From Caldimicrobium sp. (GTDB lineage Bacteria; Desulfobacterota; Thermodesulfobacteria; Thermodesulfobacteriales; Thermodesulfobacteriaceae): a stretch of DNA of 60,252 nucleotides. Location of the stretch: positions 1-60,252 of the forward strand of contig WYEG01000005.1 of assembly GCA_009903935.1 (NCBI GenBank), given 5' to 3'. The stretch's first letter is position 1; each line of letters opens with the position of its first letter. The notes under the pieces are model-generated. The model ran no database searches, was not told the origin of the DNA, and was given only the letters and a program-made list of their open reading frames with translations. Positions 6,730 to 56,822 of this stretch are shown in pieces. The position numbers and the translations under genes are program-made.

Positions 6730-7076
6730 TAAAAATGTTTTTTGAAACACCCTCAAATTGCCTCTGAGGCTGTTCAAAAAGTTCCCTACTCCGTCCTGCC
6801 GAGCGTCCTTTTTTGTCCTGCCGAGCGCAAGCCGTGCATCCCTCGCTTCGTTCGGGACGGCGTCCCGTGATGTCATCCCGAGGTGCGCAAGCGCCGAGGG
6901 ACCCCTCTCTTCCCTCGGGGCGACAAAAAAGGGGCTCGGGGCGACAAAAAAGGGGCTCGGGGCGACAAAAAAGGGGCTCTGGGCGACAAAAAATAAGGCT
7001 TGGGGCGACAAAAAATAAGGCTCGGGGCGACAGCAGAAGGGCTCGCATAAATTTTTGAAACAACCTCAAATTGTCT
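6730..7076 (+). repeat. dispersed GC-rich repeat element, copy A
   Basis: Opens with a TTAAAAATGTTTTTTG motif, contains GTCCTGCCGAGCG, a hairpin GGGACGGCGTCCC and CATCCCGAGGTGCGCAAGCG, and closes with another TTTTTGAAACAACCTCAAATTG echoing its own start (6740-6762). Related copies lie at 18048, 34492 and 46322. All six frames are open here only because of composition; none of the overlapping ORFs has a ribosome-binding site or protein-like sequence. It fills the 546-bp gap between the kinase gene and the Rrf2 gene; 6609-6729 shows nothing recognisable. Confidence 0.8.
6917..7044 (+). repeat. tandem array of six about 21-bp units
   Basis: Units of the form GGGGCGACAAAAAAGGGGCTC start at about 6917, 6938, 6959, 6980, 7001 and 7024. 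The first three are identical, the later ones vary by a few bases and one is 23 bp. The array sits inside repeat copy A and ends about 35 bp before the Rrf2 promoter. Confidence 0.9.
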
Positions 7077-7077
7077 C

Positions 7078-7105
7078 TTGACAAATTTGAACATTTAGAT
7101 ATTTT
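7078..7105 (+). promoter_or_regulatory. promoter of the rrf2-cydAB operon
   Basis: TTGACA (7078-7083), 16-nt spacer, TATTTT (7100-7105), predicting a transcript start near 7112. This placement rules out the longer open frame that would begin at 7071. Confidence 0.65.
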
Positions 7106-7112
7106 TATTAAA

Positions 7113-7124
7113 AGTAAGCTTACT
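7113..7124. promoter_or_regulatory. 12-bp palindrome, candidate operator
   Basis: AGTAAGCTTACT is a perfect inverted repeat lying on the predicted transcript start of the Rrf2 gene. This is where an autorepressing Rrf2 protein could bind. That use is inference. Confidence 0.45.
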
Positions 7125-7154
7125 AATAAAACTTTTGCTTCAAAGGAAAGTGAG

Positions 7155-7592
7155 ATGGAAATAGGTCTGATTGAGGATTATGCAGTTAGGATGGTTCTTT
7201 ACCTTTCTCAAAAGGAAGGGAAGGTTGTTAGTCGTAAGGAGTTAGCAGAAAAGGTAGACATCCCTCTTAGCTTGCTCTCAAGGATTGGGCAGATGCTTGA
7301 GATTGCCGATTTAGTTTATGTCCAAAAAGGAAGGGGAGGGGGGTATAAGCTTAAAAAGAAACCAGAGGAGATAACCCTTCTTGATGTCATAGAAGCCATC
7401 CATGGCAAGGTCTATCTCAATCGATGCGTAGAATCTCCAGGCTTTTGTAGCAGGTCTCCAGCTTGTCCAGTTCATGAAGTTTGGATTGAGATTAACGTGA
7501 GGTTTAGAGATATTCTTAAAAGCTATGATTTTAGGAAGTTATTAACCAAAAATGGAGGGCCTCAAGGAAAAAAGTCCAAAAAACAAAAATAA
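7155..7592 (+). CDS. Rrf2-family transcriptional regulator with cysteine cluster
   Basis: Small winged-helix regulator; I start it at ATG 7155 (MEIGLIEDYAVRM), behind AAGGAAAG and downstream of the promoter, giving 145 residues. The helix-turn-helix and wing (SRKELAEKVDIPLSLLSRI, then KGRGGGYKL) are typical. Three cysteines in RCVESPGFCSRSPACP fit the Fe-S cluster site of IscR/NsrR/RsrR-type proteins. It is 12 bp before cydA, so it probably senses O2, NO or Fe-S status and controls cydAB along with itself. Confidence 0.88.
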   Translation: MEIGLIEDYAVRMVLYLSQKEGKVVSRKELAEKVDIPLSLLSRIGQMLEIADLVYVQKGRGGGYKLKKKPEEITLLDVIEAIHGKVYLNRCVESPGFCSRSPACPVHEVWIEINVRFRDILKSYDFRKLLTKNGGPQGKKSKKQK

Positions 7593-7604: not shown

Positions 7605-8942
7605 ATGGATGTCCTATTAGCATCCCGTTTGCAGTTTGCAGCAGCTGCCATGTTTCATTTTCTTTTTGTTCCTTTAACCCTTGGGCTATCCTTTTTGACC
7701 GCCATCTTTCAAACCCTCTGGCTTAAGACAGGGGATGAAGATTACAAAAGAGCGGCAAGGTTTTGGGGAAAGCTCTTCCTCATCAACTTCGGTTTAGGAG
7801 TAGTAACTGGAATTACCCTTGAGTTTCAGTTTGGGACTAACTGGCGATTTTATTCTGAGTATGTAGGAGATGTCTTTGGTTCTCTTCTGGCCATTGAGGC
7901 AACGCTTGCCTTTTTCTTAGAGTCTACCTTTATCGCTGTCTGGTGGTTTGGTTGGGGGAGGATCAGTCCTAAGGTAAATACTCTTGCCATCTGGCTTACA
8001 GCCATCGGGTCAAACATCTCTGCTCTCTGGATCCTCCTTGCTAACGGATGGATGCAGCACCCAGTTGGCTATGTTATCAGAAACGGAAGGGCAGAGCTTG
8101 ATAGCTTTGCCGCAGTTTTAACCAACTCCTTTGCCTGGTGGGAGTTTCTTCACACTGTGCCTTCAGCCTATGTTTTGTCTGGTTTCTTTGTCCTTGGTGT
8201 TTCTGCTTGGCATATCCTTAGGAAGAATGAGCTTTCCTTTTTCAAAAAGAGCTTTAGGGTTGCTGCCATCTGGACGGTGATCTTTAGCCTTTATCTTATC
8301 GTAGAGGGGCACATTCACGGGGCTGAAGTTGCGGCAACTCAGCCTACAAAGCTTGCCGCCATGGAATCTCACTGGGAGACCGAGAAAGGTGCAGGCTGGG
8401 CTGTATTTGCTATACCAGATGAGGCAAACGAAAGAAATTCAGTTGAGTTCATAAAGGTTCCCAAGGTCCTCTCACTTTTAGCCTTCCATGACCCTGAGGC
8501 TGAGGTAAAAGGGCTTAAAGAGTGGCCAAAGGAAGAGCGTCCTCCCGTTGCTTTAACCTTCTGGTCCTTCAGGATAATGGTAATGCTTGGTTTGCTATTC
8601 GGACTTCTCTCTGTGCTTGCTTATCTAAAGAGAAATAATCCAGAATCCTCACCTAAGCTTTTAAAGGTGCTTGTTTGGAACATCCCTCTACCTTACATTG
8701 CCGCTCAAGCTGGCTGGATGGTTGCTGAGGTTGGAAGACAGCCCTGGATCGTCTACGGGCTTATGAAGACAAAGGATGCGGTGTCTCCTCTTTCTTCCCT
8801 TCAGGTTGGGCTTAGCCTTCCAGCCTTTATCATCGTCTACGGCATTTTGGGAGTTATCTGCTTCTGGCTTATTGCTTATCATGCAAGGAAAGGTCCTGAG
8901 CCAGTTGAGGCCACTCTTAAAGTTGAAACAAAATTAGCTTAA
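7605..8942 (+). CDS. cydA: cytochrome bd quinol oxidase subunit I
   Basis: Membrane subunit carrying hemes b558, b595 and d, reducing O2 with quinol electrons. Visible landmarks are His18 in AAMFHFLFVPLTLG, the acidic pair Glu98/Glu106, His183 (WWEFLHT), Met325 in FRIMV and the GRQPW signature at 377-381. The periplasmic Q-loop between about residues 240 and 315 is short, as in Gram-positive and many anaerobe CydA proteins (445 residues). It has a strong AAGGAGGTGG site. In a likely anaerobe its role would be oxygen or NO protection. Confidence 0.96.
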   Translation: MDVLLASRLQFAAAAMFHFLFVPLTLGLSFLTAIFQTLWLKTGDEDYKRAARFWGKLFLINFGLGVVTGITLEFQFGTNWRFYSEYVGDVFGSLLAIEATLAFFLESTFIAVWWFGWGRISPKVNTLAIWLTAIGSNISALWILLANGWMQHPVGYVIRNGRAELDSFAAVLTNSFAWWEFLHTVPSAYVLSGFFVLGVSAWHILRKNELSFFKKSFRVAAIWTVIFSLYLIVEGHIHGAEVAATQPTKLAAMESHWETEKGAGWAVFAIPDEANERNSVEFIKVPKVLSLLAFHDPEAEVKGLKEWPKEERPPVALTFWSFRIMVMLGLLFGLLSVLAYLKRNNPESSPKLLKVLVWNIPLPYIAAQAGWMVAEVGRQPWIVYGLMKTKDAVSPLSSLQVGLSLPAFIIVYGILGVICFWLIAYHARKGPEPVEATLKVETKLA

Positions 8943-8955
8943 AGGGGGTGAGACC

Positions 8956-9981
8956 ATGGAGATGAACATCTTCCAAGTAATTTGGTTTGTTCTCTGGGGA
9001 GTTCTTTGGGCTGTATACTTTACGCTTGACGGGTTTGACCTTGGGGCAGGAAGCCTCCTTTACATACTTGGTAAAGATGAGAAGGACCGTCGGGCTATCT
9101 ATCAGGCTACAGGTCCTTTCTGGGATGGGAACGAGGTGTGGCTAATCACTGCTGGTGGAGCAACCTTTGCCGCCTTTCCAAAAGCTTATGCGGTGATGTT
9201 TAGCGCCCTCTACTCTGCCCTCCTCCTTCTTCTCTTTAGCCTCATCATCAGAGGGGTAGCCATTGAATATCGGAATAAGCATGAAAGCCCAAGCTGGAGG
9301 TCAATCTGGGATTTTCTATTCTTCCTTGGTAGCCTTCTTCCTGCCCTCCTTCTTGGGGTTGCCTTTGCCAACATCTTCAAGGGAGTAGCCATCGACCAGA
9401 ACGGAATCTTTCAAGAGACTCTATTTCATCTTCTAAACCCCTACGGGCTTCTTGGAGGGCTTCTCTTCGTCTTCTGCTTTGCTACTCATGGTGCTATCTG
9501 GGTTGCTTTTAAGACAATGGACCCTCTTTCTGAAAGGGCAGGCAACTTAGCTAAAAAGCTCTGGGTTGTAACCTTAATTTTAGTAGTTCTCTTCTGGGCC
9601 TATTCCTTTGCGGCAACGAGGATTTGGGATAACTACCTCAAGGCACCTATTCTTTTCGTCTTTCCAGCCTTGGCGGTTGTTGCCTACTTAAGCGTCCCAG
9701 CCTTCTTGAACAAAAAAGCCTACTTTAAAGCCTGGGTTGGGTCAGCCTTAACCATCGTTGCCTTCACAGCTTGGGGTGTGGCAGGGCTATTCCCCAACAT
9801 TCTTCCATCTTCCATCGACCCAGCCTATAGTCTTACCATCATGAATAGCTCTTCAAGCGAGCTAACGCTGAAGATCATGACAGCGGTAGCAGTGATCTTT
9901 GTGCCTATAGTTCTTGCTTACACCATCTGGGCTTACAAAACCTTCTCCCATAAGATTTCGGAAAAAGACATAGCTTACTAA
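8956..9981 (+). CDS. cydB: cytochrome bd quinol oxidase subunit II
   Basis: 341-residue hydrophobic protein with eight or nine predicted helices and the CydB opening WFVLWGVLWAVYFTLDGFDLGAG, followed by GPFWDGNEVWLITAGGATFAAFP, which is characteristic. It starts 13 bp after cydA behind AAAGGGGGTGAG and is followed by a strong terminator, which closes the rrf2-cydA-cydB operon. No cydX-like small ORF or cydCD is visible nearby. Confidence 0.96.
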   Translation: MEMNIFQVIWFVLWGVLWAVYFTLDGFDLGAGSLLYILGKDEKDRRAIYQATGPFWDGNEVWLITAGGATFAAFPKAYAVMFSALYSALLLLLFSLIIRGVAIEYRNKHESPSWRSIWDFLFFLGSLLPALLLGVAFANIFKGVAIDQNGIFQETLFHLLNPYGLLGGLLFVFCFATHGAIWVAFKTMDPLSERAGNLAKKLWVVTLILVVLFWAYSFAATRIWDNYLKAPILFVFPALAVVAYLSVPAFLNKKAYFKAWVGSALTIVAFTAWGVAGLFPNILPSSIDPAYSLTIMNSSSSELTLKIMTAVAVIFVPIVLAYTIWAYKTFSHKISEKDIAY

Positions 9982-54225: not shown

Positions 54226-55431
54226 TTAAAACAGGGCGCCGTTTTTCACGGCTATGACTACGCCTATAACGACCATCACAACAATCCAAGCCCACATAAG
54301 GTAGACAGAAAGCTTACCCAATCCTTCGTAGCCAACTTCTTTTATACCTTTGCCAGACCTATAAGCAACTATGGCGGTGTAAAGAAGGACTATCGCTCCC
54401 ATGACAAAGGTTGCTAAGAAAAGTAAAAGGGAGCCATAGGATGGGTTTACGGGGTAGTTAGCCATGCTGTAGCCAGCTTTGGCAAAATAAGCCATACGAA
54501 GGGCTTCCCGAGCTGCGCTCATAAGAAGAACAGTTAAAATAAGGAGCCCTGCTATGGGTTTGGCATACTGAGAGGGTGAGGCTTGAGCCTTAAAAAGGAG
54601 GGCTAAAAAGATTAAAGCTGAGATGAGGGCAAGGATGAAGAAAGGATTGGTGTAAAACTTGAATTCTGAAGGAATGGTAATAAGCCAAATAAAACCTACA
54701 ACAGCTTGAATAAGAGAAAAGTAAAGGGCTAATTTAGCTCCAAACTGCTTAACCCAGTTCAAATATTCTTCTGAATACTTTCCCGACCCTTTGAAATAGT
54801 CTCCATAAAAGATAAGCCAAACACCGACTACAGCTAAGGCTGGCACCATGAAGTGGAGAAATCTAAAAAGCTCAAAGGCATGAAGAGATGAACCGGAGGA
54901 CAAATATTTTCCCCCCTTTACTACGAAGCTTGGCCATTTTTCAGGAACAAGCTGAGCAACCGCTAAAGAGTGCATCACAATTCCAGCAAGGAAAAGAAAG
55001 GCTAAGCTAAGGATTATCCAGAGAGGAGTGCTCTTTCCTTCATATCCACCGCCAAGGTAAAACCCATAAGCTAAAATAAAAGCAAGGGCAATGAAGGCTA
55101 AGAAGCCGAGAGCCCACCAGGCAGACATGGTGTTTGCTGTATACCAGAAGGGGTCGTAGATAACCTGCACGAAGAGCAGGGGGGCTACCCCAAGAACAAT
55201 AGCCCAAGATAGAGAATTTATGAATAGGCGGGTAAGGGATTGAGAAAGGAGCTTTGCGTTTGGGTTTGAGCTAAACCTTCCATAGAGGATTAGTAAGGCA
55301 GAGCCTATAACCAAATTGACAAGCAAGATATGAAGGGCAAAGGTAAGCACCAAAAAGAAATCAAATATGATGGCAGGGCTTGGCAAGCCTGCAGGGTCTC
55401 TCATGGCGTTAAGATATGTCCCTATGTTCAT
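54226..55431 (-). CDS. membrane partner subunit of a cytochrome bd-like complex
   Basis: 401 residues with about nine hydrophobic helices. The opening FDFFLVLTFALHILLVNLVIGSALLILYG has the His-containing first-helix pattern of the CydA superfamily, and further histidines lie in VMHSLAVAQ, SSLHAFELFRFLHFM. It has no GRQPW motif and no heme c motif. It lies 11 bp downstream of the heme-c-fused subunit with a strong AAGGGGGTG site, so the two form one complex. Assignment to the wider bd superfamily is inference. Confidence 0.6.
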   Translation of the reverse strand: MNIGTYLNAMRDPAGLPSPAIIFDFFLVLTFALHILLVNLVIGSALLILYGRFSSNPNAKLLSQSLTRLFINSLSWAIVLGVAPLLFVQVIYDPFWYTANTMSAWWALGFLAFIALAFILAYGFYLGGGYEGKSTPLWIILSLAFLFLAGIVMHSLAVAQLVPEKWPSFVVKGGKYLSSGSSLHAFELFRFLHFMVPALAVVGVWLIFYGDYFKGSGKYSEEYLNWVKQFGAKLALYFSLIQAVVGFIWLITIPSEFKFYTNPFFILALISALIFLALLFKAQASPSQYAKPIAGLLILTVLLMSAAREALRMAYFAKAGYSMANYPVNPSYGSLLLFLATFVMGAIVLLYTAIVAYRSGKGIKEVGYEGLGKLSVYLMWAWIVVMVVIGVVIAVKNGALF

Positions 55432-55442
55432 GGCACACCCCC

Positions 55443-56765
55443 TTATTTCTTTTTGTTAACTAAAGTAAACAAGTATTCAGCAGCCGCCTTTCTTTCTTCT
55501 TCGTTTCCTATGAAGGGCGGCATGTAGGGGAAGGCAGATAAAGCAGAAAGGAAGGCGTCTATGTCTTCAGGAGACTGAGGAGAAAGCTTTTGGAAAAGGG
55601 CTGGCAGAGGTCTTAGTCCGCTATCGGTGAAGGCATGGCAGTTTGCACAGTTATGGAGGGCGATGACCCTTCCCACCTCAAGCCGGTTCTCAGGGGTTAT
55701 CTTTCTTAAGTTTTCAGGCAGATACCCCAGTCTTGAGAGTAGCCCCTCTTTTTCAAAGGTTTCGACCTCACTTTTAATTTTTTTAGCAGGAAGGTCCTTG
55801 GCTACAGCCTGGTTTCCATACATAAACCCAAAGATGATGTAAGGTCTACGCACACCCTCTCTAATTCCTTCTGCGGAAAGGATCCCGATAAAGGTTGCGA
55901 TGATAAGAATAAGAGAGAGGACAAAATTGTTTAGCCTTGGGATAATAAAGGCTGTGAGTAAGAAGTAGAGGGTTAGAATGGCGTAGACTATTAATGTCAC
56001 CTTAGCGAGAGCCTGCATGTAAGGTAGGGAGCTCAAGAGCTGTTGGGCAGGGCCAGGAAGCTTCTTGTAATACCAGTAGCCAAAGATTAATCCAAGGATC
56101 ATGCCAGCTAAAGCAAAGCGGGAGATGATCTTTGTGATTTCAAGCCTTGTTTCTCCCTTTAGGGTTGAAGCAATGAGCAACCCATAGATTCCAGCAACAC
56201 CAAACATAACAGAAGTTCTGGTAAGAAGTTGAGGGAAGTAGGTGGGGTTGAAGAAGCCGTCGAAGAAATCACCAGTCTCAAGCCATTTGCCAGGTGTTAA
56301 CTGAAAGGCAAGGATACCGGTGATGATGATCATGCTTATCCAGGCCGCAAGGGCATAAAGATAACCTATTCTTAAGTGGGTTTTCGGGTCAACTTTCCCT
56401 AAGGTGTAGTAGTAGGCATAGATGGTTGCGATCTCAATCAAGAAAAAGACCCATTCCGTTGCCCAACCCCAAACATAGTTATGGATTAGGGCTGAGATGC
56501 CTCTTGGTGAAGAGACGGTAGCTGAATACCAGATGCCAATTCCTGAAAGGGACCCGAAGATAAAGGCAAAGATCAGTAAGAGCAGGGTAAAACGTTTGAT
56601 GAAGGCAAAGTACTCAGGGCGGTTCTTTTCTAAACCAATCTTTTCAATGAAGACGGTGACCCAGAGGGCACCCACGGCAAGGTGGGATGGTAAAACATGA
56701 AAAGAAGCAATAAGACCTATCACTAAGGCACTGCTTAAATAGGGGACCTCCCATATCGGATACAT
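55443..56765 (-). CDS. cytochrome bd-like subunit I fused to a cytochrome c domain
   Basis: 440 residues. Helix 1 is SFHVLPSHLAVGALWV, as in CydA; acidic residues in ATEWVFFLIEIATIYAYY match the CydA Glu pair; VRRPYIIFGFMYGNQ lines up with GRQPW. The C-terminal 75 residues form a small cytochrome c: CANCH (Cys373, Cys376, His377) and Met415 in YMPPFIG. This fits the heme-c branch of the bd superfamily, thought to use cytochrome c or quinol; the substrate (O2, NO or none) is unproven. A strong AGGAGGGGG site precedes it. Confidence 0.72.
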   Translation of the reverse strand: MYPIWEVPYLSSALVIGLIASFHVLPSHLAVGALWVTVFIEKIGLEKNRPEYFAFIKRFTLLLLIFAFIFGSLSGIGIWYSATVSSPRGISALIHNYVWGWATEWVFFLIEIATIYAYYYTLGKVDPKTHLRIGYLYALAAWISMIIITGILAFQLTPGKWLETGDFFDGFFNPTYFPQLLTRTSVMFGVAGIYGLLIASTLKGETRLEITKIISRFALAGMILGLIFGYWYYKKLPGPAQQLLSSLPYMQALAKVTLIVYAILTLYFLLTAFIIPRLNNFVLSLILIIATFIGILSAEGIREGVRRPYIIFGFMYGNQAVAKDLPAKKIKSEVETFEKEGLLSRLGYLPENLRKITPENRLEVGRVIALHNCANCHAFTDSGLRPLPALFQKLSPQSPEDIDAFLSALSAFPYMPPFIGNEEERKAAAEYLFTLVNKKK

Positions 56766-56796: not shown

Positions 56797-56822
56797 AAAA
56801 AATAATAATGATATTATTTTTT
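56797..56822. promoter_or_regulatory. AT-rich inverted repeat upstream of the bd-like operon
   Basis: AAAATAATA (56799-56807) and TATTATTTT (56812-56820) form a dyad around a 4-nt centre, extendable by two bases each side. It lies 34-57 bp before the start codon and resembles Fur/PerR-type boxes in size and composition. Confidence 0.4.

Follow-up and report, generated by a model that had tools for sequence, protein, structure and literature searches.

Two genes lie in tandem on the reverse strand of the window, the 60,252-nucleotide stretch of Caldimicrobium sp. DNA analysed here, which is contig C46 of a 1.56 Mb genome that is 97% complete. The upstream gene (positions 55,443–56,765, − strand) encodes a 440-residue CydA-like catalytic subunit, here called A, with eight transmembrane helices followed by a C-terminal, predicted periplasmic monoheme cytochrome c domain. 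After a gap of 11 nucleotides comes the gene for its partner B (54,226–55,431, − strand), a divergent CydA paralogue of 401 residues with about ten helices. The boundaries are those given in a preliminary description of the locus, and both genes begin with an ATG preceded by a ribosome site of the GGAGG/GGGGG type. Upstream of A there is a weak sigma70-like promoter, TTGACC-17-TATTAT (56,830–56,802, − strand), and a 26-bp AT-rich perfect inverted repeat (56,797–56,822) spans the −10 region of this putative A-B promoter, although it too is a weak feature and the promoter scan returned fewer sites than shuffles would give. A conserved operator was rejected, as the repeat is missing in the close relatives L074, L028, L092 and L030. 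The closest relatives of the window are Thermodesulfobacteriaceae, including a genome recorded as Caldimicrobium thiodismutans (79% identity). No oxygen genes flank the pair in the window, and a fixed operon partner was likewise discarded, since only A and B are conserved across loci and the other neighbours vary.

Subunit A gave a Pfam match to PF01654 above the curated cut-off (E 3.2e-10), and its C-terminal part matched CBB3-type cytochrome c (1.2e-5). Single-sequence searches of the PDB found no homologue; it took an alignment profile of A, built from 85 homologues, to recover the bd subunit I of Geobacillus, whose structure has been solved (5doq_A, E 4.8e-11). Comparison of this kind with the canonical CydA profile gave an E value of 1.5e-11 in hhalign. 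In Foldseek searches with the AlphaFold (AF2) model of A (pLDDT 93.7), all matches at E <= 1e-3 were bd oxidase subunits, with CydA chains at the top (9r2g_A, 5doq_A, 6rx4_A). The homology to CydA extends over the heme-binding helices and takes in five active-site counterparts, which qualifies A as a bd subunit I. Structure and profile searches together exclude an unrelated membrane family for A, the outcome named in advance as the one that would overturn the original reading, and the structure models of A and B both match bd subunits. We conclude that A is a true relative of cytochrome bd subunit I.

The heme ligands of E. coli CydA are H19 and E445, with H186 and M393 serving heme b558. Residues H23, E104, E111, E303 and R306 of A are the counterparts of E. 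coli H19, E99, E107, E445 and R448, and each is present in all 98 homologues aligned, as are H28, R183, E299, R302, C373, C376 and H377; M415 is kept in 97 of the 98. This invariance argues that the motifs did not arise by chance. The CydA-like histidines reported for helix 1 are thus H23 and an additional H28, and the reported glutamate pair is E104/E111, present and invariant but spaced i,i+7 rather than i,i+8. The version of GRQPW described as VRRPY was located at residues 302–309 (REGVRRPY). The wider motif E299-R302-E303-R306-P308 (55,842–55,871, − strand), identified from profile alignments, corresponds to CydA W441/E445/GRQPW at the periplasmic end of TM8. The cytochrome c with a Met ligand was also borne out: a covalent heme c site, C373-A-N-C376-H377 (CANCH; 55,635–55,649, − strand), is followed further downstream in the gene by the distal ligand M415. 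This domain comes after TM8 and the RRPY motif, in place of CydA TM9. With eight helices and an N-out start, as in the topology of CydA, it would lie on the periplasmic side; the loop charges gave no clear support for either topology.

Several departures from CydA go beyond the preliminary description. The position of E. coli W441 is occupied by the invariant E299, and the b558 ligand positions H186 and M393 are T182 and T257 in A and vary across the A family. The Q-loop (K252/E257) is gone, with 12 residues (236–247) between TM6 and TM7 in the AF2 model. A is without the features that make bd a quinol oxidase, namely the Q-loop and, judged from alignment, both heme b558 ligands.

Pfam gave no meaningful match for B; an assignment to DUF3290 was set aside because the match fell below the curated cut-off and was present in only 2 of 73 homologues. 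In hhalign comparisons, the B profile aligned with that of A (E 2.6e-14) and with that of CydA (E 2.1e-6), placing H34 on H19 and H193 on H186, compared to an E value of 0.05 and a probability of 1% for CydB. The AF2 model of B (pLDDT 92.8) is closest to CydA (9r2g_A and 5doq_A, TM 0.59–0.61) and then to CydB (TM 0.42–0.50). Fold ranking and profile comparison together rule out a divergent CydB, and the earlier observation that B begins with a CydA-like rather than a CydB-like helix holds. B is a divergent CydA paralogue, and like A it is short in the Q-loop region.

Within B, residues H193, M304, R308 and Q89 are invariant in 93 sequences, and H34 is present in 92. An independent set of 30 Acidobacteriota proteins retrieved with the B profile kept all eight positions checked, with R190 being Lys in two. 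The plasmid-borne B proteins of Thermus and Methylosinus have neither H193 nor M304 but retain H34, R308 and R312. This joint loss, in one or two events, suggests that H193 and M304 would ligate one and the same heme; H34 may instead pair with M304 or with H193. The new Met304 lies on helix 8, not helix 7. The low-spin heme site seems to have been transferred from catalytic A to its paralogous partner B. We tentatively propose, as an idea with somewhat less than even chances, a re-partitioned version of the three-heme bd enzyme in which A swapped b558 and the quinol loop for a covalent heme c, and in which B replaced CydB and would hold a low-spin heme b at H193/M304. If so, the redox centres of this bd-type oxygen reductase would be spread over two CydA paralogues, and the loss of H193/M304 in Thermus and Methylosinus would make the heme of B optional for turnover. 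This division of redox sites between two paralogues is what may be new here.

Phylogenetic analysis of 111 sequences gave four separate clades, one each for A, B, canonical CydA and the OR-N-like proteins. The bd-superfamily tree suggested earlier as a check on both subunits thus places each in a clade of its own, apart from canonical CydA and OR-N-like proteins; it came from a quick search with SH-aLRT support only, and the branching between the groups is unsure. Heme c in a CydA-like subunit that lacks a quinol site is the mark of the OR-C family, to which the A-B pair would belong by these two traits. The likeness includes a CydA-related subunit I, the active-site residues, the absence of a Q-loop and a presumed non-quinol donor; to our knowledge, no activity has been reported for OR-C or for A-B. 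The pair probably belongs to this published family. Two sources divide the bd superfamily into the three families qOR, OR-C and OR-N, ascribe the quinol site to qOR, and show that this classification (Murali, Gennis and Hemp 2021) already covers bd relatives without a quinol site (PMC10839748, PMC13189123). The description of this branch as largely unstudied is therefore fair for its biochemistry, as no measured electron donor or acceptor for its enzymes was found in the literature surveyed, but the branch already had a name.

Canonical bd (qOR1, CydAB) shares with A the fold of subunit I and the counterparts of H19, E99, E107, E445 and R448. A differs in carrying a cytochrome c and in lacking H186, M393, the Q-loop and TM9, and its partner is a CydA paralogue; with no Q-loop, no H186/M393 and a subunit II that is not CydB, the pair falls outside qOR. 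The OR-N proteins of Nitrospira and Nitrospina resemble A in their N-terminal bd core, the absence of a quinol site and the c-type cytochromes alongside, but they differ in having 14 helices, the extra ones occupying the Q-loop position, and in having their cytochromes encoded by separate genes (PMC3578206); A has eight helices. Length, helix number and the separate clade in the tree rule out OR-N membership for A. An OR-N-like bd family of about 620 residues, followed by diheme and monoheme cytochrome c genes, does occur in the same phylum (L137–L146), with versions of 718 and 764 residues in L138 and L139, the latter adjoining a cytochrome with 16 CxxCH motifs. Archaeal CydAA' is a complex of two CydA paralogues that is quinol-fed and has no heme c. 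It resembles A-B in its two paralogues and differs in the other two respects, on a comparison made by description only.

A lies beside B in about 120 loci. These come from Thermodesulfobacteriota, Nitrospirota, Elusimicrobiota and Acidobacteriota or are carried by plasmids of Thermus and alphaproteobacteria, and the invariant residues are shared throughout. Each of the 30 Acidobacteriota loci retrieved by B-profile search has A adjoining B. Pairwise distances for A and B correlate strongly (r = 0.93 for 58 pairs, with none of 1000 permutations as high), and the correlation inside a close group is 0.78. The two subunits are an obligate unit. Their order can invert, with B before A in L017–L023, and their electron-input modules differ yet are always c-type: there are variants in which A carries seven additional fused CxxCH motifs or B carries two, and in Methylosinus a small cytochrome c gene comes after B. 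Genomes of the same family as the window carry another A subclade with seven extra CxxCH motifs on A and with B in front (L022, 97–2,769; L023, 1,495–4,149), so related organisms have differing versions of the pair.

The classic cydAB reported from the same genome is present in the window itself, about 45 kb away, as cydA (7,605–8,942, + strand; PF01654, E 7.6e-177) and cydB (8,956–9,981, + strand; PF02322, E 4.8e-104). This CydA retains every classical residue (H18, E98, E106, H183, K249, E254, M325, W371, E375 and R378). Just upstream is a gene for an Rrf2-family regulator (7,071–7,592, + strand; PF02082, E 1.8e-31, Pfam-scanned from 7,146). Rrf2 genes also adjoin A-B in several Nitrospirota loci, and both bd types may be under common Rrf2 control. 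Immediately before the Rrf2-cydAB cluster, a 21-bp tandem array (6,914–7,032; 5.6 copies, 92% matches) is covered by called ORFs for repeated FCRPEPL-type peptides, which are probably spurious. Canonical bd passes electrons in the order b558, b595, d, with Glu107 as proton donor (PMC13189123). Searches of the window's own genome found no COX1 or heme-copper oxidase and no match to NapC/NrfH. The genome does encode a cytochrome c assembly protein, a small monoheme cytochrome c (contig C51) and a Rieske/cytochrome b pair (contig C1), which together make a route from quinol via cytochrome c to A-B plausible.

Within a sample of the phylum, A was present in 25 of 148 genomes. Among the 17 A-bearing genomes that were also covered by the PF01654 listing, canonical CydA was found in 11 and not in the other six, so that cydAB alongside A-B is common without being universal. 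Within this group of six, three genomes that are all 97% complete or better (G046, G062 and G086) gave neither a canonical CydA nor a COX1 match. With A-B as the sole bd or heme-copper type oxidase detected in some genomes, current counts of oxygen handling among anaerobes, Acidobacteriota and Nitrospirota are probably too low.

Gene context in relatives suggests, but does not prove, a link with oxygen. Canonical cydA, cydB, A and B form a single same-strand cluster in two Nitrospirota loci (L057, 3,392–8,575; L062, 1,409–6,468), with cydAB directly upstream of A-B. COX1 and a UbiA-type prenyltransferase, probably a heme O synthase, are found beside A-B in L069, with the same gene clusters in L073; a P-type ATPase and a DsbD-like protein adjoin the pair in L060, with these clusters also in L067 and L068. 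Islands near A-B (L076, L083, L099 and others) contain genes for a Fur/PerR-type regulator, rubrerythrin, desulfoferrodoxin, ferritin, flavodoxin, peroxiredoxin and a flavodiiron-type (ODP) protein, and peroxiredoxin is the next gene upstream in the close relatives L004, L028 and L074. Of 44 genes immediately adjoining the pair on the same strand, roughly a dozen have oxygen or redox functions and the others are housekeeping genes, as raw counts.

Taken with the sequence and structure comparisons, we consider it probable that A-B is a two-subunit cytochrome c:O2 oxidoreductase of the bd superfamily. A and B would form one complex, for which we infer the following heme content, topology and electron path. 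A periplasmic cytochrome c would donate to the heme c domain of A, the plausible donor here being the small monoheme protein of contig C51, reduced in turn by the Rieske/cytochrome b of contig C1. From heme c, electrons would pass to a di-heme site in A with putative ligand positions H23 and E303, where O2 would be reduced using cytoplasmic protons, with E104 and E111 as candidate proton and heme-pocket residues. B would take the place of CydB structurally and may contain the low-spin heme b on H193/M304. In this anaerobe, the physiological role would be to remove O2 with electrons from the pool of periplasmic cytochrome c, alongside cydAB, which is fed by quinol.

The acceptor is the point on which the strongest alternative differs, namely that A-B is mainly a cytochrome c-fed nitric oxide reductase, or a detoxifier of NO or peroxide, with O2 reduction secondary. 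Canonical bd both binds and removes NO, NorCB-type NO reductases are likewise fed by cytochrome c, the cytochrome c domain profile of A has a weak match to NorC chains, and reduction of NO or peroxide would leave the same sequence signature. Against this, the recognisable functional neighbours of A-B are O2 reductase and oxidative-stress genes, no denitrification gene was found in the annotated A-B neighbourhoods, and the plasmid neighbourhoods have no annotated nitrogen-oxide gene. We infer O2 rather than NO as the acceptor and regard the NO reading as unlikely. Less likely still is a quinone/cytochrome c electron-transfer complex similar to alternative complex III (ACIII), possibly running in reverse, that is not a terminal reductase. 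A comparable function had at one time been suggested for bd-like oxidases of the OR-N type in nitrite oxidisers (PMC3578206), and weak fold matches to ACIII membrane subunits were seen, mostly for B, but both subunits match bd oxidase better and the loss of the Q-loop speaks against this reading. Moreover, the CydA di-heme active-site residues are invariant in A, in contrast to NrfD-like subunits, which are described as without redox cofactors (PMC8076601). We know of no B-like partner of PuuD, and an identity of A as a PuuD-type membrane urate oxidase is very improbable. PuuD has a similar gross architecture (N-out/C-out, eight helices and a C-terminal cytochrome c; PMC4562309) but other chemistry, and A is disfavoured as such by a Pfam scan that matched PF01654 and cytochrome c families but not DUF989, the PuuD family, by fold matches to bd oxidase, and by the fact that no purine genes were noticed beside it.

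With a cytochrome c:O2 oxidoreductase as the preferred reading, the thermophilic A-B is well suited to tests of cytochrome c-driven bd-type chemistry, coming as it does from a genome in which no heme-copper oxidase was detected. The pair is widespread and its gene labels are poor: on the plasmids, NCBI annotation names A ‘cytochrome c’ and B ‘hypothetical protein’. On Thermus thermophilus plasmids (L178, 6,235–8,801; L179, 8,001–10,567), A-B adjoins a gene for a metal ABC transporter binding protein. In the plasmids of Methylosinus and Agrobacterium (L180, 7,983–12,925; L181, 7,995–12,539), genes for a membrane histidine kinase and for a response regulator of the Fis type come after A-B, and the Methylosinus plasmid also has the small cytochrome c after the pair, with methanobactin genes adjoining.
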